DNA of 58,381 nucleotides from a bacterium (lineage in GTDB: Bacteria > Zhuqueibacterota > QNDG01 > DSAB01), in the NCBI GenBank assembly GCA_011388275.1, contig DSAB01000003.1, positions 1-58,381 on the forward strand, read 5' to 3'. The position numbers were made by a program, and so were the translations under genes. Positions within the stretch are counted from its first letter, which is position 1. Every line of letters begins with the position of its first letter. Below, piece after piece: positions 16,457-27,089 of this stretch. Under the pieces are notes generated by a model. It did not search any database and was not told the origin of the DNA. It saw only the letters and a program-made list of their open reading frames with translations.

Positions 16457-16501
16457 ACTATGATTTCATTTTCACATCTAATTTGGAGATTTTGCCGTTC
16501 A

Positions 16502-17707
16502 ATGTCAAGAGAAAAAAACACAGTAAAAAGTTGGAGCCTTTTCGGGCTTCTTGTTATGTGCATGCTTGCCTCTTTTCTTCAGGCCGAAGAGAGAGGCAGG
16601 GCGCGTGACCGGGGAATCGTGACCGGCATTCTGGACACGGGACCGCTCAACGCGATCACCGACGTCGAGGGTGTCCGGGTCGGACATCGAACGCTGATCA
16701 GAGGCGATTCGGTTCGCACCGGAGTGACGGTAATTCTTCCCCATGAGGGAAACCTGTTCCGTGACAAAGTTCCGGCCGCGGTGTATGTGGCCAATGGTTT
16801 CGGAAAACTGGCTGGGTCCACTCAGATTCAGGAACTGGGGGAGATCGAAACTCCCATCGCGCTGACCAATACTCTGAGTGTCAGCACCGGAGTTCGGGCT
16901 CTGGTGGAGTATACCCTTCGCATGAAGGGAAATGAGGGTGTCCGGTCAGTGAACGCCGTTGTGGGTGAGACCAACGATGGATGGCTGAATGACATTCGGG
17001 GCATGCATGTCAGGCCGTCTGATTTTTTGGAAGCGATAAGATCGGCGGGTTCAGGGCCGGTTGAAGAGGGCAGTGTGGGTGCCGGAACCGGAACCCGGTG
17101 TCTTGGGTTTAAAGGGGGCATCGGAACCGCGTCGCGCCGGCTTCCCGAAGAACTGGGAGGATGGACGGTAGGGGTGCTGGTGCAGACCAATTTTGGCGGT
17201 ATACTGACCATCAATGGAGCACCGGTAGGTCGGGAACTAAACAACCATTATCTCAGCGCATTCAGATCCGGGAATGGTTCCTGCATGATTGTCGTGGCTA
17301 CAGATGCTCCGCTTTTAAGCCGCCAGCTCACGCGGCTGGCTTCACGGGCCGTTTTGGGAATGGTCCGGTGCGGCGGTTTCTGCAGCAACGGCAGCGGTGA
17401 CTATGTGATCGCCTTTTCCACTAACAAGGCGTGCCGTATCGGTCCGGCAAGCGGCATCCGACACTATCGGGAATTGACCAATGATGCCATGACTCCTCTT
17501 TTTCTGGCCGTGGTCGAAGCCACGGAAGAAGCGATACTCAATTCTCTTTTTCAGGCGACCGACGTAACCGGAGTCGATGGACATGTGTCCAGGGCGCTTC
17601 CTGTTGAAGAAACTCTCGAGATTTGCCGGCGTTACGGAGTTTTGAACTGGGATAAGGTGCTTCCCGGTCTGCGGAGAGGCAAACTTTCAAAAGAATCGCG
17701 GCAATAA
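16502..17707 (+). CDS. exported P1 family (DmpA-like) aminopeptidase
   Basis: A self-processing N-terminal-nucleophile peptidase; known relatives release N-terminal residues or cleave beta-alanyl peptides. With the ATG at 16502 the protein has 401 residues and a Sec signal peptide ending near LASFLQA. An in-frame ATG at 16460 would add 14 residues; its AGGGA is only two bases away, so 16502 is preferred although its GGAG is 13 bases off. Family motifs: GPLNAITDVEGVRVGHRT near the mature N-terminus, then VVGETNDGWLNDI and GSVGAGTGTRCLGFKGGIG. Autocleavage is predicted between Gly259 and Ser260 in GNGSCMIVVATDAPL, which frees Ser260 as nucleophile. It is followed after 33 bases by nfeD; a separate unit is possible. 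Confidence 0.88.
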   Translation: MSREKNTVKSWSLFGLLVMCMLASFLQAEERGRARDRGIVTGILDTGPLNAITDVEGVRVGHRTLIRGDSVRTGVTVILPHEGNLFRDKVPAAVYVANGFGKLAGSTQIQELGEIETPIALTNTLSVSTGVRALVEYTLRMKGNEGVRSVNAVVGETNDGWLNDIRGMHVRPSDFLEAIRSAGSGPVEEGSVGAGTGTRCLGFKGGIGTASRRLPEELGGWTVGVLVQTNFGGILTINGAPVGRELNNHYLSAFRSGNGSCMIVVATDAPLLSRQLTRLASRAVLGMVRCGGFCSNGSGDYVIAFSTNKACRIGPASGIRHYRELTNDAMTPLFLAVVEATEEAILNSLFQATDVTGVDGHVSRALPVEETLEICRRYGVLNWDKVLPGLRRGKLSKESRQ

Positions 17708-17740
17708 ACAAGAACTCTTATAAAAATAAAGGATGCCGTC

Positions 17741-19057
17741 ATGGCAAAAAAAACTGTTGTTCAATTGAACGAACGGTCCGGAAAAAACCGTTTTCATCCT
17801 CTGTGGATTCTGATGGGTTTGACCGTTCTTTTCGCGGAAGTACGTGCGGGTGATATTCACTGGATCCAGGTGGATGGGCCCATCACACCGGTTACGGCAA
17901 AGTATATCATCGATGCGGTCGACCGGGCCGCCAAAGAAGACGCCGAACTTCTGATTATCCAAATGGACACGCCCGGCGGTCTGATGCAGTCGACCTGGTC
18001 TATCAACAAAGCCTTGCTGGCCGATGAGGTTCCGGTGGCGGTTTATATCGCCCCAAGCGGAGGGAGGGCCGCCTCAGCCGGAGTCTTTATCTCATATGCC
18101 GCCCATATCGTGGCCATGGCTCCGAGCACCAACATCGGTTCAGCCCATCCGGTGAGCATGGGCGGCCAGGATACATCCAAAGTGATGACCGAGAAAGTCG
18201 TCAATGACGCGGTGGCGCATATTCGCGGGGCGGCTGCGAAACGAGGCCGAAACGCCGACTGGGCCGAAAAAGCCGTACAGCAGAGTGTGTCCATTACGGA
18301 AACCGAGGCACTCAAGCTGGGAGTGGCCGATTTAATCGCCGCGAATACGGATGATTTGCTGAAACAGCTGAACGGCAGAACCGTTGAATTGAAGGAAGGG
18401 AAGAAATCTCTCGACACACGAGGCAAGCCGATCATGCGTTTTCCCATGAGCTGGCGATACAGAATTCTCGATAAAATATCCGATCCAAACATCGCCTATT
18501 TGCTCATGCTGGCCGGCATTATGGGGATATTTTTTGAGCTTCAAAACCCGGGGGCCATTTTTCCGGGCGCTCTGGGCGGCATCTCCCTCGTGCTGGCATT
18601 TTTCGCCCTTCAGGTGCTGCCCATCAATGCATCCGGTATTTTGCTGATTTTACTTGCCATTGTCTTTTTTATTCTCGAAATTAATATTGCCAGTTACGGG
18701 CTTTTGACCATAGGAGGTATTGTGTCCATGACTCTGGGATCGCTCATGCTGTTCAGAACGCCGGCTCTTCGTGTGTCTCTCGCGATCATCATTCCTGCGG
18801 TTCTCGTGACCGCTGCGTTCTTTATATTCGCCATAGGCATGGCGCTTAGAGCCCGAATGAGCAAGGCCACGACCGGCACCCAGGGCATTATCGGTGAAAA
18901 GGGAGAAATTATTCGTGCCTGCCGTCCGGAAGGCCAGGTCGCTGTTCACGGAGAGATCTGGAAGGCCGTCTCCGAAAAACCCTTAAAAAAGGGGGAGAAA
19001 GTGGAGGTCGTGGCAGTGGAAGGCATGGTGCTGAAGGTGAAACGGCTGAAAGAATGA
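17741..19057 (+). CDS. NfeD-family membrane serine protease (ClpP class)
   Basis: A 438-residue long-form NfeD. After a signal sequence (to about residue 36) comes a ClpP/SppA-like protease domain with a Ser-Lys dyad: Ser112 in GGRAASAGVFIS and Lys152 in MTEKVVNDA, matching the dyad known from archaeal 1510-N. MDTPGGLMQST and PSTNIGSAHPV are further family motifs. Four or five membrane helices follow (about 240-375), and a C-terminal OB-fold NfeD domain begins near GTQGIIGEKGEI. Long NfeD proteins are encoded next to slipins and are thought to cleave them or act in membrane-domain quality control; here the slipin gene starts 64 bases downstream. The ATG at 17741 follows AAAGGA. Confidence 0.92.
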   Translation: MAKKTVVQLNERSGKNRFHPLWILMGLTVLFAEVRAGDIHWIQVDGPITPVTAKYIIDAVDRAAKEDAELLIIQMDTPGGLMQSTWSINKALLADEVPVAVYIAPSGGRAASAGVFISYAAHIVAMAPSTNIGSAHPVSMGGQDTSKVMTEKVVNDAVAHIRGAAAKRGRNADWAEKAVQQSVSITETEALKLGVADLIAANTDDLLKQLNGRTVELKEGKKSLDTRGKPIMRFPMSWRYRILDKISDPNIAYLLMLAGIMGIFFELQNPGAIFPGALGGISLVLAFFALQVLPINASGILLILLAIVFFILEINIASYGLLTIGGIVSMTLGSLMLFRTPALRVSLAIIIPAVLVTAAFFIFAIGMALRARMSKATTGTQGIIGEKGEIIRACRPEGQVAVHGEIWKAVSEKPLKKGEKVEVVAVEGMVLKVKRLKE

Positions 19058-19120
19058 TTTTCTGGTGATTCCGAAAGAATGTTTCCGAGTTGTATTTAAC
19101 CCAAAACAAAGGAGGTTGTT

Positions 19121-19870
19121 ATGCCGGGCCTGATCACAGTCATTGTCATTCTTGTGATGATTTTAGTCAGTGCGGTACGTATTTTAAAAGAGTATGAAAG
19201 GGGCGCCATTTTTCGTCTGGGGCGTCTGATCGGATCACGGGGTCCTGGCTTGATCGTCATCATTCCCATCGTCGATCGTATGATCAAGGTGAGTCTGCGT
19301 ACCATTGCCATGGACGTTCCTCCCCAGGACGTCATCACCAAGGACAATGTCTCTGTCAAAGTCAATGCCGTTGTGTACTTCCGGGTTATCGATGCCGGCA
19401 AGGCCATTGTCGAGGTGCAGGATTATCTCTATGCCACTTCCCAGCTCGCTCAGACAACGCTTCGTTCCATATTAGGGCAGTTTGAACTGGACACGCTTCT
19501 TTCTGAGAGAGAAAAGGTCAATGAAAATCTGCAGACGATTCTCGACAAGCACACGGATCCATGGGGAATCAAAGTGTCTCTGGTTGAAGTGAAGCATATC
19601 GACCTGCCCGAAGAAATGAAGAGGGTCATCGGGCGGCAGGCGGAAGCCGAGCGCGCGCGGCGTGCCAAGATTATTCATGCCGAGGGAGAGTTTCAGGCTT
19701 CCAAACAGCTGGCCGAAGCGGCAGCCAGACTGGGCACCGAGCCCACCGCAATACAGCTGCGTTTTCTGCAGACCCTGGTGGAGGTGGCCGCTGAAAACAA
19801 CTCAACCCTGCTGTTCCCGGTTCCCATCGATTTGTTCGAACCTTTCCTGAGGAAGACCAAAGGGAAGTAG
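19121..19870 (+). CDS. slipin (stomatin/SPFH band-7 protein)
   Basis: A 249-residue protein with an N-terminal membrane hairpin or anchor (residues 2-20), an SPFH domain opening [14 protein letters not shown], and an oligomerising helical region ([20 protein letters not shown]). Slipins form large membrane-associated rings and organise membrane domains; bacterial ones pair with NfeD, as here. A very strong ribosome site, AAAGGAGG, precedes the ATG at 19121, stronger than that of NfeD, which fits a high slipin to protease ratio. The C-terminus ([17 protein letters not shown]) is the conserved hydrophobic end that in archaeal slipins contains the protease target; by analogy it may be the NfeD substrate. 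Confidence 0.93.
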
Positions 19871-20283: not shown

Positions 20284-20365
20284 TCCCGGCGGCGCAAGAG
20301 GAACCGTCCATGGCTGCCGCTGAAGCCGGGGACGTGTGTCAATAACGAAATGGGGGAGCTTTTTT

Positions 20366-21484
20366 GTGGCCTGTCAGGTGAAACCTGTGCAGACAGGGAA
20401 AGATCTGCGGCGGTTTATTCAATTCCCCTATCAATTGTACAGAAACGATCCGGTGTGGATTCCTCCTTTAAGGTCCGAATCCAGAAAGATGCTGAATACG
20501 AGGACCAATCCGATGCTGGCGCATTGCGAGGTTCAGCATTTTCTGGCTGTAAAAAACAACCGGCTGCTCGGGCGTGTCAGTGCGTTTATCGACAGGCTGG
20601 CCCTGGATGCCTGGAAAGAACCGGTAGGCCTTTTCGGTTCCTATGAGTGCGTGGACGACGACGAGGCTTCCGGAATGCTACTGGATCAGGCGCGCATCTG
20701 GCTCAAAACCCGCTCCATGAAAAAAATGCGGGGCCCATGGAGTTTCGCATCTCAGGAATGGGGGGCCCAGGTCAGCGGGAACGGATTGCCCCCCATGATC
20801 ATGGCGCCCTATAATCCGCCTTACTATATACATCAGATGGAGCGCTTCGGCCTGAAGAAAGCGAAGGATCTGCTCGTCTACGATATCGACTATCCCCAAA
20901 ACTACACCTTGCCGGAACGTTTCATCCGGCTGACGGAAAAAATCACGGAGAAATACCGGATCAACATACGCTCCGTGGACATGCGACAACTGAAAAGGGA
21001 TGTGAGGATCATTGTTGATGTGGCCAATGAATCCACGCGGAATAACTGGGGCTATATTCCGGTTACTTCCGAAGAAGCGGATAATCTGGCGGCCTCTCTC
21101 AAGCCTGTCGTGGATCCTGATCTGGTCATGATCGCCGAGGCCGGAACGATTCCCGTCGGTTATTTGATCGCCTTGCCGGATATCAATGTGCTTCTGAAAG
21201 ATTTGAACGGCCGTTTGTTTCCACGCGGTCTCGCAAGAATGGTATTCAGCCGAAACCGGATCCGGCAATACCGGATCTGGGCACTTGGAATCGTCCCCGA
21301 GTACCTGCGTCGTGCCATTGATACGTTGTTTTACCGGCGTCTTTCGGAGGTGCTCATTCGAAAAGGCGTGGAACGGGTCGAGGCCAATTATGTTCTCGAA
21401 GACAACATGGCCATGAACAATCCTTTGAAGAAGATGGGTTTTAAAGAGGCCAAGCGTTATCGGGTCTTTGAAATGAAGCTGTAA
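20366..21484 (+). CDS. GNAT-like acyltransferase, uncharacterised family
   Basis: A protein of 372 residues if it starts at the GTG at 20366, which has GGGGAG seven bases upstream; a GTG at 20336 would add ten residues but lacks a ribosome site. The N-terminal part (DLRRFIQFPYQLYRNDPVWIPPL, then NPMLAHCEVQHFLA in shorter pieces) and the C-terminal part (AEAGTIPVGYLIALPDIN, then GIVPEYLRRA and LEDNMAMNNPLKKMGFK) match a widespread two-domain family usually annotated N-acetyltransferase. The last third looks like a GNAT fold, with a conserved Asn-rich end. Donor and acceptor are unknown. Only three bases separate its stop from the next start, so it is probably translated with the AmmeMemoRadiSam genes. 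Confidence 0.72.
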   Translation: MACQVKPVQTGKDLRRFIQFPYQLYRNDPVWIPPLRSESRKMLNTRTNPMLAHCEVQHFLAVKNNRLLGRVSAFIDRLALDAWKEPVGLFGSYECVDDDEASGMLLDQARIWLKTRSMKKMRGPWSFASQEWGAQVSGNGLPPMIMAPYNPPYYIHQMERFGLKKAKDLLVYDIDYPQNYTLPERFIRLTEKITEKYRINIRSVDMRQLKRDVRIIVDVANESTRNNWGYIPVTSEEADNLAASLKPVVDPDLVMIAEAGTIPVGYLIALPDINVLLKDLNGRLFPRGLARMVFSRNRIRQYRIWALGIVPEYLRRAIDTLFYRRLSEVLIRKGVERVEANYVLEDNMAMNNPLKKMGFKEAKRYRVFEMKL

Positions 21485-21487
21485 CGA

Positions 21488-22675
21488 ATGGAGTCAGGAT
21501 CTTTAAAAATATCTTTTCAAAATCCGGCCGTTCGATCTGCCAATGAAAAGCGAAAATTTTCTTTCGCAATTACCCGCCGAGATTTTATCAGAAAAACCGG
21601 TATGCTGGGAGGCTCGCTGCTTTCCGGAGAAGTCTGGAGAACCCGGGATTTCGCTTATGAGCCGGTTGAAGCCCGCTACTATAGAAAGCTGGATGGCGAG
21701 CGCGTTCAATGCCTCCTGTGTCCGCACGAATGTGTCGTGGCATCCGGAAGGAGGGGGCATTGTCAGGTTCGGGAGAATCGCGACGGAACGTATTTCAGCC
21801 TGATTTACGGTCGTATCGCGGCTTTTCACAATGATCCCATCGAGAAAAAACCCCTGTACCATTTTATGCCGGGCAGTTTGGCTTTCTCCCTGGCCACGGC
21901 CGGCTGCAATGTGAACTGCAAGTTCTGTCAAAACTGGGAACTGGCTCAGAGACGTCCGGAAGATCTGCCGTTTGTTCTATACAGGCCGGAGGAGGTATCC
22001 ATACGGGCACTGGAATGGCGATCTTCCTCCATTGCGTTCACCTATAACGAGCCCACGGTGTACACGGAATTTATCGTGGAAGCGGCCGCAGAGGCCCGGT
22101 CAAGGGGAGTTAAAACCGTTCTCATTTCAAACGGCTACATTAACGAGAAACCGCTTGGGGATCTGTGCGAAGTGGTGGATGCGTACAAGATCGATCTGAA
22201 AGCCTTTACAGAGAGTTACTACCGCGAGGTGGTCAACGGCAGATTGTCCAGTGTCCTGGATACTCTGATTCGTCTCAGGGAGAGGAAGATATGGACGGAG
22301 ATCGTCTATCTCATCGTGCCAACGCTGAACGACGATCCGAAGTCCCTGGAACAGATGGCAACCTGGATCCGAAACAATCTGGGTGATGATGTCCCCCTTC
22401 ATTTTTCCCGGTTTTATCCCAAATATAAACTCAAGAATCTGCCTCCAACACCCATAACCGCTCTTGAAAAGGCGAGAAACCTGTGTCTGGATGCGGGATT
22501 GCACTATGTCTATATCGGAAATGTGCCCGGACACGAGGGAGAAAACACGTATTGCCCGCAATGTCACAAGATGCTGATACAGCGCCTGGGCTATCGCATC
22601 ATAAAGAATCACATTCAGAATGGACGATGCCTTCATTGCGGAAACGAGATCGCCGGAGTCTGGCAGTCTTTCTGA
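21488..22675 (+). CDS. AmmeMemoRadiSam system radical SAM enzyme with Tat-like leader
   Basis: A 395-residue radical SAM enzyme of the set named for its constant association with AMMECR1 and Memo proteins. The 4Fe-4S/SAM motif is Cys140-x3-Cys144-x2-Cys147 (CNVNCKFCQNW). An N-terminal cysteine group (Cys75, Cys78, Cys82: CLLCPHEC) and a C-terminal zinc-ribbon-like pair of knuckles (Cys356/359 and Cys381/384) are also visible. Residues 29-50 read TRRDFIRKTGMLGG, a twin-arginine motif with a short hydrophobic stretch, suggesting export of a folded cofactor-bearing protein; the leader is weak because the core is short and no AxA site follows. The start at 21488 has a poor ribosome site, so coupling to the upstream gene is likely. 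The fused Memo-AMMECR1 gene starts 15 bases downstream. Confidence 0.88.
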   Translation: MESGSLKISFQNPAVRSANEKRKFSFAITRRDFIRKTGMLGGSLLSGEVWRTRDFAYEPVEARYYRKLDGERVQCLLCPHECVVASGRRGHCQVRENRDGTYFSLIYGRIAAFHNDPIEKKPLYHFMPGSLAFSLATAGCNVNCKFCQNWELAQRRPEDLPFVLYRPEEVSIRALEWRSSSIAFTYNEPTVYTEFIVEAAAEARSRGVKTVLISNGYINEKPLGDLCEVVDAYKIDLKAFTESYYREVVNGRLSSVLDTLIRLRERKIWTEIVYLIVPTLNDDPKSLEQMATWIRNNLGDDVPLHFSRFYPKYKLKNLPPTPITALEKARNLCLDAGLHYVYIGNVPGHEGENTYCPQCHKMLIQRLGYRIIKNHIQNGRCLHCGNEIAGVWQSF

Positions 22676-22690
22676 TCAGGGGGTATATGG

Positions 22691-24199
22691 ATGATACGGC
22701 GCATCACTTTTTTTTGTATCCTGTTGAATTTCATCGGTACAGCAAACGGATTTTCTGCGGATATAAGATATTCCGTTCATGCGGGACATTTTTATCCTTC
22801 GAATGCCGGTGAACTGGAACGACAAATCGAAGAAAAACTGAAGGAGGCTCAAAAACGGCATATACCGGGCCCGATACGGGCGATTTGGGTTCCTCACGCC
22901 GGATATGTTTTCAGCGGTTGGGTGGCGGCCAATGCTTATGAGCTGGTTCGCGGCGCAGATGTCGATGTTGTTATCGTTCTTGGAGTCAGCCACTATTTTC
23001 CCCTGAGAGGCGTTTCCGTGGGAGACTGGTCTCATTATCAAACTCCTTTGGGGTTGGCAAAGACGGATACAGTTCTAATCCGTGAACTCTGCAGGCACGA
23101 AACGATTCATACAGAAAGGCGGGCCCATATCCATGAACATTCGATCGAAGTTCAAATCCCTTTTATTCAAACGGTTTTACCCGGGCGGACCATTGTACCG
23201 ATTTTGATAGGCCGGATTTCCTATGAAGAGGCAAGAAACACCGCCCGAATATTGGCTGAAGTGACCCGGGACCGGAAAGTCCTTTTTATCGCGAGTTCGG
23301 ACATGTCCCATTTCCCCGGATATGAGGAAGCTTATCGGGCGGACGGTGAAATACTTCAGGCTGTCCAGGCCTTTGACGCGAGAAAAGTTTTTCGCCTCAA
23401 TGAAACTCTGCCGCTGCAGAAAATCCCGGGTCTTGAAGCCGCCCTGTGCGGCGGGCCGGCTCTTGTTGTCACCATGCTGACGGCTCGGTTGTCGGGTGCG
23501 GATCGTGTTCAGGTGCTTCTCTATCGCAATTCGGGTGATGTAACCGGTGAAAGAAACCGGGTCGTTGGATACGGAGCCGCGGTTTTTTATCATCCGCCAT
23601 CAATCAACAGGTCGGAAGGAGTGCATATGACAGCGGATATTCATTTCACGCGTGAGGAGAAGCAAACCCTTTTTTCTATTGCCCGAAAAAGCATCGATGA
23701 CGCTCTTAAGGGTCGGATATGGAACATCGATCCGTCGGAATCTCCCAATCTGAACCTTGAGAGAGGTATTTTCGTGACATTGACCAACCGAGGGCGGCTG
23801 CGCGGATGCATCGGACATTTTGAAGCGGATCGCCCCCTCTATGAGATGGTTGCCAGGATGGCCGCAGCGGCCGCAGCGGAGGATTATCGGTTTTCTCATC
23901 AACCGGTGACTCCCGAAGAGATGGATGAAATTGATATCAAAATATCCATTCTCTCTGAGATGAAGAAAATCGACTCGATTGATGAGATACAAATCGGCAG
24001 GCACGGTATCTGGGTACGTCAGGGTTTGCGCGGCGGAACGTATCTGCCCGAAGTCGCCATGGAGATGGGATGGAATCAAATCGAATTTCTCGAGCATTGC
24101 TGTGTGGAAAAAGCGGGGCTGCCAAGAGACGCGTGGAAAAAGGGGGCCGATGTCTATATTTACAGCTCTCAGATATTGGATGAGAGGTGGGATCAGTAA
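22691..24199 (+). CDS. fused Memo-AMMECR1 protein with signal peptide
   Basis: A 502-residue two-domain protein. Residues 1-23 form a signal peptide (MIRRITFFCILLNFIGTANG). Residues about 25-300 are a Memo domain, a relative of extradiol dioxygenases; the metal ligands known from human MEMO1 have counterparts here: His69 (VPHAGYVFSGW), His150 (EHSIEVQIP), Cys253 (LCGGPA), plus His207 (SSDMSHFPG). Residues about 315-500 are an AMMECR1 domain with the signature LRGCIG (370-375), RFSHQPVTPEEM and RDAWKKGADVYIYSS. In most genomes these are separate genes. Both partners and the radical SAM enzyme carry export signals, pointing to an extracytoplasmic version of the system. The reaction is unknown. 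A run of G precedes the ATG at 22691. Confidence 0.9.
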   Translation: MIRRITFFCILLNFIGTANGFSADIRYSVHAGHFYPSNAGELERQIEEKLKEAQKRHIPGPIRAIWVPHAGYVFSGWVAANAYELVRGADVDVVIVLGVSHYFPLRGVSVGDWSHYQTPLGLAKTDTVLIRELCRHETIHTERRAHIHEHSIEVQIPFIQTVLPGRTIVPILIGRISYEEARNTARILAEVTRDRKVLFIASSDMSHFPGYEEAYRADGEILQAVQAFDARKVFRLNETLPLQKIPGLEAALCGGPALVVTMLTARLSGADRVQVLLYRNSGDVTGERNRVVGYGAAVFYHPPSINRSEGVHMTADIHFTREEKQTLFSIARKSIDDALKGRIWNIDPSESPNLNLERGIFVTLTNRGRLRGCIGHFEADRPLYEMVARMAAAAAAEDYRFSHQPVTPEEMDEIDIKISILSEMKKIDSIDEIQIGRHGIWVRQGLRGGTYLPEVAMEMGWNQIEFLEHCCVEKAGLPRDAWKKGADVYIYSSQILDERWDQ

Positions 24200-24392: not shown

Positions 24393-24731
24393 ATGAACAT
24401 TGATTTGAAAGAAATTGGTGATGTAACGGTCATGGCGATCAAGGGAAACATGATGGGAGGACCGGAGACCATTTCCGTTCATGATAATATCAAGGGATTA
24501 ATCAATCAGGGAAAATCAAAGGTCGTAATCGATCTTTCGCAGGTAAAATGGATGAACAGTTCAGGGCTGGGTACGATGATGGGATGCCTGACATCCTTAA
24601 AGAATGCGCAGGGCGACCTGAAATTGAGCGGAGTGACGGAGAAGGTAAAAAGCCTGTTCATGATTACCAAGCTGATTACTCTTTTTGAAACATACGACTC
24701 CTATGAAGACGCGGCAAAGGCGTTTGAGTAA
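24393..24731 (+). CDS. STAS anti-sigma factor antagonist (orphan)
   Basis: A 112-residue SpoIIAA/RsbV-like protein. The site that an RsbW-type kinase phosphorylates is VKWMNSSGLG, with Ser56 and Ser57 as candidates. Unphosphorylated antagonist binds the anti-sigma kinase and frees its sigma factor. GGAGGAGAGG precedes the ATG closely, an excellent ribosome site. It is alone between its own promoter and a hairpin terminator. The kinase and phosphatases that could act on it are 22-29 kb away (46072-53232), next to a second STAS protein with which it shares the fold but only modest sequence identity. It may be a second output or a competitor in that switch. Confidence 0.92.
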   Translation: MNIDLKEIGDVTVMAIKGNMMGGPETISVHDNIKGLINQGKSKVVIDLSQVKWMNSSGLGTMMGCLTSLKNAQGDLKLSGVTEKVKSLFMITKLITLFETYDSYEDAAKAFE

Positions 24732-24796
24732 TGTTTAAGAGTTTCGGCGTTTATCACCCGGTCTGCAATTCATATAATCATGGTTTGGCTGCTGCT

Positions 24797-24823
24797 GAAG
24801 GGCGGGATTGAAACCCGCCCTTC
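24797..24823 (+). terminator. hairpin terminator after STAS gene
   Basis: Perfect 10-bp GC-rich stem (24797-24806 with 24814-24823) around a 7-base loop, 66 bases after the stop codon. The downstream T-run is weak (TCCATTCC). Confidence 0.6.
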
Positions 24824-24901
24824 TCCATTCCAATTCAGTCATTGTTGCAAAGCCGGGCATTAAATGGTTTCCCGGGGATCATTCACTCATCATTCATTTT
24901 A

Positions 24902-25012
24902 TCATTCCCGCGAAAGCGGGTTCACTCCGCGTAACTGGGCAGCCTTGAATCCAGATTTTCTGTTGCGCAGAGCGGCTCTGCCGTAGTCTAATAACCCGAT
25001 GATGCGAAATGA
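24902..25012. repeat. dispersed palindromic repeat, copy 1
   Basis: Starts TCATTCCCGC with a perfect CCCGC-GAAA-GCGGG hairpin (24907-24920), runs to CTTGAATCCAG (24944-24954), then a 6-bp hairpin GCAGAG-CGG-CTCTGC (24967-24981). It may end at an inverted partial copy of its left end (GCGAAATGA, 25004-25012). The same landmarks recur at 39712-39830. The remainder of the 376-base gap 24732-25107 holds only the terminator hairpin; no promoter for the following operon was found. Confidence 0.6.
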
Positions 25013-25107
25013 CAATGACACCCAGTCTGCGGTAACGCATAAAATTAGCAGGAGAAAAAAGGCTCCGAAATACCGTTTTCATAAGATATTTCGGTACCAG
25101 GTAAAGG

Positions 25108-26088
25108 ATGGTTGTGGAAGAAGCCCTGAAACAGATAGAGACGTTGCTGGCACAAGAACTTACCCGGTTCGATGCCGTTTATCGAGCCCAGCTGCAATCC
25201 GGATATTCTTCCATTCAATCCGTTCTCGATCATCTAACCATTGAAAGGGGCAAGCGGATCCGTCCGATCCTTTTTTTCCTTTGTCAGGGTCTGGTCGGCC
25301 GGCCGTCGGCGGAGACAGCCCATGTGGCGGTCATGATCGAGATGCTCCATATGGCCAGTCTGATTCATGACGATGTTGTGGACGGTTCGATGCAGCGGCG
25401 GGGAAGGGATACGGTGAACGCCAGATGGGACAATCGTATCTCGATTTTACTGGGCGATTGGTTGATGTCACGCGTATTAAGATTGATTCCATGCGGGCCT
25501 GAAGGAACACTGAATATCTTTTCCGACGTGGTGGATCAGATGGCTGTGTGTGAACTGGAACAGGCCCTGAGCAATCCCGAAACCGAATCGCCGGACGAGG
25601 AAACCTATCAGCGTATCATTTTCGGGAAAACAGCCGCCTTGTTTTCCGCGGTCTGCCGCCTGGCGGGTTTGGCGGCCTCAAGCAAAGAAAAAACACATTC
25701 GAGATTGTCCCGGTTCGGAGAGCTGTTCGGCATGGCATTTCAGATTCGGGATGATGTTCTCGACATCATCGGTGACCGTCATTTGCTGGGCAAACCCGTC
25801 GGTCAGGATTCATTCAACAGCCGGATGAATCTTCCGCTGATATTGTCCTGGATACGGTGTAGTGAAGAGGAAAAAGACTGGCTGCGCCAATGTCTGGAGA
25901 AGGCTTCCGAGAAAAACAGGGAGAGAATATCATCTTTCGTTCATGACAAGAAAGGCCACCTCATGGCTCAGAAACAAGCCGGCCGCTACAGCGATGAGGC
26001 CAGTGTTATTCTTTCAGGATTTGCCCGATCGAAATACCGGGAAGCGATTGAAAACCTTCTTGATTGGAACCTGTCGAGAAAACAGTGA
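25108..26088 (+). CDS. all-trans polyprenyl diphosphate synthase
   Basis: A 326-residue class I prenyltransferase that lengthens an allylic diphosphate with isopentenyl diphosphate. Both metal-binding motifs are intact: Asp88-Asp89-x2-Asp92 in LIHDDVVDGSMQRRG and Asp215-Asp216-x2-Asp219 in FQIRDDVLDI. GKRIRP near residue 49 is the diphosphate-binding motif. Small residues before the first Asp-rich motif (HMASLIHDD) fit a long-chain (C35-C45) product for a quinone side chain rather than farnesyl or geranylgeranyl; this is inference. It is the first gene of a seven-gene run with gaps of at most 14 bases. The ATG at 25108 follows a modest AAAGG. Confidence 0.9.
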   Translation: MVVEEALKQIETLLAQELTRFDAVYRAQLQSGYSSIQSVLDHLTIERGKRIRPILFFLCQGLVGRPSAETAHVAVMIEMLHMASLIHDDVVDGSMQRRGRDTVNARWDNRISILLGDWLMSRVLRLIPCGPEGTLNIFSDVVDQMAVCELEQALSNPETESPDEETYQRIIFGKTAALFSAVCRLAGLAASSKEKTHSRLSRFGELFGMAFQIRDDVLDIIGDRHLLGKPVGQDSFNSRMNLPLILSWIRCSEEEKDWLRQCLEKASEKNRERISSFVHDKKGHLMAQKQAGRYSDEASVILSGFARSKYREAIENLLDWNLSRKQ

Positions 26089-27089
26089 GAAGCAAAACCC
26101 ACATTATTTGGCTGATTGGAGTATTATTATCCTGCAGAAGAGTGGATGTTCAACCGGTTGAGGAGATCCGTTTTCTAATGGATACCTTCGTGCGTATTTG
26201 CGTGTATGAAAGGTTTCAGCCGGAGGAAGAGATCAGGCGCATTGTGGATGAGGCTTTTCATGCCATGGAATACTGGGAGATCCGTACATCCTGTTATGCG
26301 GATACGGGGCTTGTTTCGAGAATCAATCAGCAAGCCGGAGGGTCTGTTTTACCCGCTGATTCGATGTTTCGATACTTGTTGACCCGGAGTCTGGAAATCG
26401 GCCGGGACACAAAAGGCGCTTTCGACGTGACTGTGGGCAGAATCAAACAGCTATGGGATTTTAATGCCGAAAAGCCCCGGGTTCCCGATGAACTGGAATT
26501 GAAGGAGGCTCTTCGGCATGTGGACTGGCAGGGGGTTGATCTCACGAAACAGGGTGTCCGCCTGGCACGGGAAGGAATGTCCATTGATCTGGGCGGCATT
26601 GCCAAGGGATTTATTATCGATCGAGCTGTCGAAGTGCTTCAAAATGCAGGCCTTTCCGCGGGCATTGTGGATGCGGGAGGAGATCTTCGTGTTTTCGGCC
26701 GCATTCCGGGGCGTAACCGCTGGCGTATCGGGATTCGGCATCCGCGAAAGGACGGTGCCATTCTGGGTGTGATTCAATGCCTCGAGTCGAGCATCGCCAC
26801 ATCGGGTGATTATGAACGCTTTTTCCTGATAGACGGGATTCGGTACCATCACCTGCTCGATCCGAAAACCGGTTATCCTGCCTGGAGATGCGTCAGCGCA
26901 ACCGTTGTTGCGGCGACTGCTCTGGAGGCGGATGCTTATGCAACGGCGGCCTTTATCATGGGCTATCATGAAGGAAAAACCTGGTTTGAGAGCCGGTCGG
27001 GCCTGGAAGCACTTTGGATCGTTGAGAAAAATGGAGAATTGAGCTGGGAAATGACTTCCGGCATGGAAACAATACTGAAAATTGAATGA
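26085..27089 (+). CDS. apbE: FAD:protein FMN transferase lipoprotein (ApbE)
   Basis: Attaches FMN covalently to Thr/Ser of exported or membrane flavoproteins such as Nqr/Rnf subunits. The preferred start is the GTG at 26085, which overlaps the TGA of the upstream gene and gives 334 residues; a TTG at 26064 is the alternative. The GTG start leaves a lipoprotein signal ending IGVLLSC, as is usual for ApbE. Family motifs: [22 protein letters not shown], the central [31 protein letters not shown], and the metal-binding [12 protein letters not shown]. No target flavoprotein is encoded in the window. Its place inside a lipopolysaccharide operon is unusual. Confidence 0.93.

Follow-up and report, generated by a model that had tools for sequence, protein, structure and literature searches.

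A probably exported variant of the AmmeMemoRadiSam system in a wide bacterial clade and its link to a membrane protein with a spermidine-synthase-like domain

The closest described relative of the system reported here is AmmeMemoRadiSam, whose three components are represented by the families TIGR04335, TIGR04336 and TIGR04337. A passage of PMC7159879 mentions "Memo-Ammecr1 systems" with a citation to Burroughs et al. 2019, and no enzymatic activity was found for the human Memo protein, MEMO1 (PMC11081632). We analysed a 58,381-nucleotide stretch of DNA (the window; contig DSAB01000003.1 of assembly GCA_011388275.1), which is the whole of contig C6 of a 2.82-Mb metagenome-assembled genome (MAG) from the KSB1 phylum. 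In the window an acyltransferase-like open reading frame (ORF), a TIGR04337 radical S-adenosylmethionine (SAM) ORF and an ORF for a Memo-AMMECR1 fusion follow one another head to tail. To our knowledge, radical SAM enzymes are regarded as confined to the cytoplasm, on the grounds that this compartment provides SAM, low-potential electrons and intact Fe-S clusters. We propose, with a probability of about 0.68 for the explanation as a whole, that the window encodes an extracytoplasmic variant of AmmeMemoRadiSam for which a membrane protein encoded elsewhere in the genome, here called S, is the most likely SAM handler. The family itself is known; the exported variant and its link to S are the new part, and a full-text literature search, the coverage of which did not extend to Burroughs et al. 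2019, returned no description of either.

The window system is consistent with previously defined AmmeMemoRadiSam systems in having all three components above the family cut-offs, adjacent genes, and the residues for metal and Fe-S binding. It differs from them by its export leaders, by the fusion of Memo to AMMECR1 and by its membership of a separate clade. In addition, the exported form co-occurs with S and, in part of the clade, with a DUF362 protein bearing a twin-arginine translocation (Tat) leader, and a leaderless paralogue of the radical SAM enzyme is present in the same genome. The features of the system in the window are as follows.

21488..22675, + strand: AmmeMemoRadiSam radical SAM enzyme (rSAM) with a Tat-type leader, 395 residues; 384.9 bits in a profile search with TIGR04337 (cut-off 220); member of the exported clade
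21488..21655, + strand: N-terminal Tat-type leader region of rSAM, residues 1-56
21575..21580, + strand: twin-arginine codons CGC CGA (R30, R31)
21905..21928, + strand: radical SAM CxxxCxxC motif, residues 140-147 (C140, C144, C147)
22691..24199, + strand: secreted Memo-AMMECR1 fusion, 502 residues, starting 15 bp downstream of the rSAM ORF; TIGR04336 240.9 bits (cut-off 26) and TIGR04335 169.6 bits (cut-off 99), with PF01875 and PF01871 also above cut-off
22691..22759, + strand: general secretory (Sec) signal peptide of the fusion, MIRRITFFCILLNFIGTANGFSA; best 11-residue hydropathy 2.53, RR in the n-region
22766..23587, + strand: Memo domain, metal ligands H69, H101 and C253
23666..24175, + strand: AMMECR1 domain, with LRGCIG as residues 370-375

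The initial annotation had described both proteins as tagged for export, rSAM by a twin-arginine leader and the joined Memo and AMMECR1 by a Sec signal; both leaders are present and the homologues agree. In rSAM, a 61-residue extension precedes the family domain and contains the segment ...FAITRRDFIRKTGMLGGSLLSG..., in which residues 29-36 read TRRDFIRK, similar to the (S/T)RRxFLK pattern. The two arginines and the phenylalanine (residues 30, 31 and 33) are invariant in 10 members of the window's order, and the whole leader is absent from the paralogue at locus L002. The window genome encodes TatC (219.7 bits; G000:C18). A search of Memo-AMMECR1 fusions for signals, which had been suggested as a check, identified a Sec or lipoprotein signal in 72 of the 77 tested; of the remaining five, two belong to open-ended loci and three lie beside leaderless Bacteroidota rSAMs. 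Based on these comparisons, the fusion is almost certainly exported.

We then placed the window enzyme among its relatives, using a scan of 80 loci together with a phylum search of 69 genomes and a tree of 147 rSAM domain sequences from which the leaders were excluded. The leader-bearing enzymes form a single group of 99 sequences (support 89) that covers more than 20 phyla, including KSB1, Omnitrophota, Thermodesulfobacteriota, Acidobacteriota, Myxococcota, Planctomycetota, Chloroflexota, Bacteroidota, Ignavibacteriota, Latescibacterota, Armatimonadota and others. Leader labels change 10 times on this tree, against 56 times when shuffled. Under one calling rule, leaders were called in 90 of the 99 members of this exported clade and in none of the 48 members of the cytoplasmic clade. 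The 99 comprise 78 with Tat leaders, 12 with Sec or transmembrane (TM) leaders, 2 truncated at a contig end and 7 that are leaderless; taken together, the N-termini of homologues within the clade are not clearly non-exported. Among the 78 Tat calls, 73 have RR and 5 have KR or RK, and F occupies position +4 in 64.

The seven leaderless members are L091, L103, L139 and four from Bacteroidota. For L091 (upstream of position 2375) and L103 (upstream of 5379), a hydrophobic leader and the first domain residues were located out of frame or in an ORF of their own, with an ATGA overlap for the leader ORF of L103; a frameshifted assembly or a split gene would fit either case. A further irregular start was noted at L008:1504-2619 (- strand), where a Tat-type rSAM ORF has no ATG, GTG or TTG before the RR and is preceded by AAGGAGG, pointing to a non-canonical start or a sequence error.

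All 12 genomes of the window's order match TIGR04337, nearly all of them twice: the longer enzyme bears a leader and is encoded next to the fusion, and the shorter one has neither leader nor fusion. The short copy of the window genome is the leaderless ORF C44:6209-7204, and a stand-alone second Memo of 276 residues is encoded on contig C22. The predicted exported module is not peculiar to the window genome, and belongs to a wide clade beside a separate cytoplasmic paralogue. Upstream of the second rSAM we recognised, by eye, ORFs resembling FeoB, FeoA and a DtxR-type regulator (L190:6212-9868). These iron-gene neighbours of the cytoplasmic paralogue recall the link of MEMO1 to iron.

The route of export appears to change with the available machinery. 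TatC was identified in 19 of 20 genomes with a Tat-leader rSAM and in 3 of 12 with a Sec/TM-leader rSAM (Fisher p=7e-5; some of these genomes are incomplete MAGs, and p-values from genome profiles, here and below, ignore shared ancestry). A switch in the Tat-to-Sec direction matches what selection for an outside location would predict, and the leader-bearing clade together with this switch where TatC is missing upholds the earlier suggestion that the parts are destined for the periplasm. The same switch argues against the view that the Tat-like leaders are non-functional, so that rSAM stays in the cytoplasm and only the fusion is exported. That view would account for the weak hydrophobic region (h-region) in the leaders of the window rSAM and its sister L008, and for L114 of Bacteroidota, where the rSAM is leaderless and the adjacent fusion is secreted; however, the twin arginines are retained, in the proportions given above, in leaders that otherwise diverge, and we consider it very improbable.

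Several members of the exported clade show features that would require an outside location. In L083, L086, L088, L096 and L116, all of one subclade, a CxxCH sequence followed by a further histidine is inserted after the domain start and just ahead of the first cysteine motif; the insertion occurs in 5 of 99 exported and 0 of 48 cytoplasmic sequences. Cytochrome c maturation attaches heme c outside the cytoplasm, and the insertion represents a candidate heme-c site. The Sec leaders of L080 and L082 contain AxA-like sites. Just upstream of rSAM in four Sec-leader loci, we identified genes for DsbD_2 TM-domain proteins (L094:1735-3435, L104:5066-6742, L084:6155-6820 and L075:5723-6544), two of which are fused to FMN_bind and Fer4_5. 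Such proteins form a plausible transmembrane electron path, and that they serve rSAM is conjecture.

These features bear on the possibility that the leaders act only as tethers, with rSAM held at the membrane by an uncleaved leader and working on its cytoplasmic face, or that rSAM is a maturase which acts on an exported client mainly before export. Many leaders, including that of the window enzyme, lack a clear cleavage site, in keeping with a tether, and Tat substrates are folded and loaded with cofactors before they are transported, as a pre-export role would allow. On the other hand, an anchor with its N-terminus inside would place the enzyme outside, the putative heme-c insertions need the outside, the leaders of L080 and L082 appear cleavable, and the partner fusion leaves by the Sec route. 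We regard tethering or pre-export action as improbable. Export of rSAM across the clade is, by the same comparisons, highly likely; for the window enzyme itself it is likely.

Catalytic and metal-binding residues are conserved in both clades. The eleven rSAM cysteines, arranged in three motifs (75/78/82/92, 140/144/147 and 356/359/381/384), show essentially no variation among either exported or cytoplasmic enzymes, and CxxxCxxC is present in all 90 exported and all 54 leaderless sequences compared. Nothing in these alignments suggests decay of the exported enzymes. The proven iron ligands of MEMO1 are H49, H81 and C244 (PMC11081632), which correspond to H69, H101 and C253 of the window fusion. 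These positions are conserved in 80/80, 80/80 and 79/80 fusions, respectively, as is the cysteine of the AMMECR1 LRGC motif in 80/80. The initial annotation had listed H69, H150, H207 and C253 as metal ligands; the first and last stand, H150 and H207 are conserved residues of the pocket rather than ligands, and H101 had been overlooked.

To see which other genes accompany the exported form, the neighbours in 65 exported loci were compared all against all. Four families recurred across phyla: rSAM (65 loci), the fusion (39), S (26) and a Tat-leader DUF362 protein (21). The other clusters were shadow ORFs of these four or genes of single lineages, and none of fusion, S and DUF362 was recurrent among 31 cytoplasmic loci. 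The DUF362 protein is encoded immediately upstream of rSAM in many loci of KSB1, Planctomycetota, Acidobacteriota and Myxococcota (L038-L058, L060-L099), and is likely a further component of the system. We also considered it as an electron carrier and dropped the idea, as it has no conserved cysteine.

S is a protein of ~750 residues and 14 TM segments, the two TM halves of which are separated by a spermidine-synthase-like domain. Its gene order with the system is fusion, S, rSAM in L120 and L130; in the window genome it is on another contig than rSAM (G000:C1:199592-201850) and is the sole PF01564 match. With fragments at contig edges counted, S is present in 44 of 45 KSB1 genomes with the exported system and in 2 of 24 others (p=1e-14); the two S-only genomes likely reflect assembly gaps, since their congeners carry the system. 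G015, G037 and G039, from the same families as carriers, lack both the exported system and S, and because of these contrasts simple ancestry is a poor explanation of the link. In the cross-phylum set, S was detected in 21 of 25 exported-system genomes and 2 of 25 others. When those two exceptions were searched for a second TIGR04337 copy, both were found to hold one, with a Tat leader, immediately next to S. This prediction might have failed; with it confirmed, the counts became 23/27 versus 0/23. By neighbourhood, S was present in 23 of 50 exported loci and in 1 of 31 labelled leaderless, the one being L103, which lies inside the exported clade. S very probably belongs to the system.

The best reason to think that S meets a need arising only outside the cytoplasm comes from Bacteroidota. 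L107, L130 and L134 have Tat-type leaders, with S in the locus or the genome. In L111, L115 and L122 the rSAM is leaderless, the fusion beside it carries no signal and the genome encodes no S; L114 likewise lacks the rSAM leader and S, although a signal remains on its fusion. S therefore appears to follow location and not the chemistry itself. Among needs peculiar to the outside, SAM supply would be the obvious candidate.

The AlphaFold2 model of S (pLDDT 88.9, pTM 0.89) places seven helices before the domain and seven after it. In all 23 sequences compared, predicted-inside loops contain 14-26 K+R and outside loops 2-6, so the domain is predicted to face the periplasm. In addition to its PF01564 match, the domain shows the spermidine synthase fold by Foldseek (TM-score 0.75 to 1uir). 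Compared with spermidine synthases and polyamine aminopropyltransferases (1uir, 3anx; membrane forms NF037959, PRK03612), S contains this fold between two 7-helix bundles, the second bundle being its own, along with a specific NR motif and the tie to the exported rSAM system. It keeps the nucleotide-binding scaffold without the aspartates of aminopropyl transfer: the GGGDG aspartate is found in 0 of 52 S sequences versus 13 of 18 membrane controls, and the D170 equivalent in 7 of 52 versus 18 of 18. With these aspartates missing, we ruled out S as a canonical spermidine synthase.

An alternative that accepts export is that S is a pathway enzyme, which would attach a group derived from SAM to an envelope molecule on which rSAM and the fusion also act; SAM would then enter the periplasm by another route or be pre-bound in the folded enzyme, allowing few turnovers. 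The likeness to aminopropyltransferases extends over 284 aligned columns, the NR motif is strictly conserved (N in 51/52, R in 52/52), and the absence of detectable S from 4 of the 27 cross-phylum exported systems is hard to explain for an essential SAM supplier. Against a role as enzyme stand the missing catalytic aspartates and the joint loss of S and the leaders in Bacteroidota, which would be expected if S has a use only outside. We consider this alternative rather unlikely. That S itself supplies or holds SAM is likewise tentative, although slightly better favoured.

Based on the above, we hypothesise that Tat would export rSAM folded, with its Fe-S clusters already inserted, and that a Sec/TM leader would take over in lineages without Tat. 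The enzyme would work outside the inner membrane with the secreted fusion. The parts, their leaders, the metal sites, the clade and the co-occurrence with S are evident from the sequences, whereas export and a compartment common to rSAM and the fusion are what we infer. S may bring SAM or a SAM-derived ligand across the membrane, or hold the ligand there, and the 5'-deoxyadenosyl radical would act on a substrate in the iron-binding Memo/AMMECR1 pocket, which by default we guess to be an envelope or periplasmic molecule. A bolder version, with periplasmic radical SAM chemistry in more than 20 phyla, S exporting SAM or presenting it at the outer face of the inner membrane, and transmembrane flavin/Fe-S or DsbD-like conduits delivering electrons, we hold to be unlikely in full.

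Several points weigh against the proposed extracytoplasmic system. The Tat leader of the window rSAM has an h-region hydropathy of 1.01, the third least hydrophobic of 73 (median 1.82), and no clear AxA cleavage site; both h-region and cleavage site are clear in most relatives. A single-sequence predictor might miss this leader because of its weak h-region, yet export is convincing because of the comparison across the clade. The proposal presupposes SAM and a low-potential reductant in the periplasm, and a Sec-routed rSAM would need metallation outside. The gene for S adjoins that for rSAM in only about half of the loci, and the window is not among them. The 18 canonical membrane spermidine synthases (~515 residues, catalytic Asp kept; L244-L261) show the same loop-charge topology as S; either they face outward too or the loop-charge rule misleads for this superfamily, and topology is weakened as a hallmark of S. 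The model of the N-terminal half of S (pLDDT 92) had MFS-type transporters as top matches, but with insignificant E-values of at least 0.12. As a separate observation, the orientation or the substrates of the canonical membrane spermidine synthases may need rethinking.

Two solved relatives place the components in context. Human MEMO1 (PDB 7kq8, 3bcz) has the same domain, with equivalent ligands for iron and copper, and differs from the window protein in being intracellular, unfused and without a radical SAM partner. The nearest solved relative of the rSAM core is pyruvate formate-lyase activating enzyme (PDB 8fo0, 3c8f; E 1.2e-8), which is cytoplasmic and lacks the leader and the N- and C-terminal cysteine motifs. 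A wide clade that appears to keep export through a Tat-to-Sec switch contradicts a strictly cytoplasmic view of radical SAM enzymes and makes the question testable, and S is a specific protein that may handle SAM across the membrane. The long-sought function of Memo, including human MEMO1, and of AMMECR1 may also come within reach through this system, because its paired cytoplasmic and exported forms and the reversion in Bacteroidota separate the needs of the chemistry from those of the compartment. If the proposal is right, an oxygen-sensitive radical enzyme would run its chemistry where this was thought impossible; the bolder version would imply an extracytoplasmic SAM economy that has not been described before.

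The remaining gene of the head-to-tail arrangement lies upstream of rSAM.

20336..21484, + strand: GNAT-like acyltransferase homologue, 382 residues from GTG; neighbour only in the window's order

The gap of three bases between this ORF (end 21484) and the rSAM ATG (21488) is as first annotated; the start is the GTG at 20336 and not 20366. Its assignment as GNAT-like holds for orthologues, which score 23.4 (L008) and 30.5 bits (L009) with PF00583, whereas the window protein itself, at 15.8 bits, is below the cut-off of 20.7. A comparison of how often the same acyltransferase lies next to such fusions had been suggested as a check; its adjacency to rSAM was seen only in loci of the window's order and not elsewhere.

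Downstream of the fusion (24393-27089), the window encodes a STAS protein, a polyprenyl synthetase and an ApbE flavin transferase, none of which recurs near the system elsewhere. A link to isoprenoids, prompted by the polyprenyl synthase, was dropped, as no such gene recurs in exported neighbourhoods. The ApbE gene (26064-27089, 2 kb downstream) and an ORF adjoining S that resembles RnfB by eye are only suggestive as an electron source for the window system. Upstream, at 16460-19870, lie genes for an S58 peptidase, an NfeD1b protease and a stomatin-like Band 7 protein, the NfeD/stomatin pair being ordinary in appearance.

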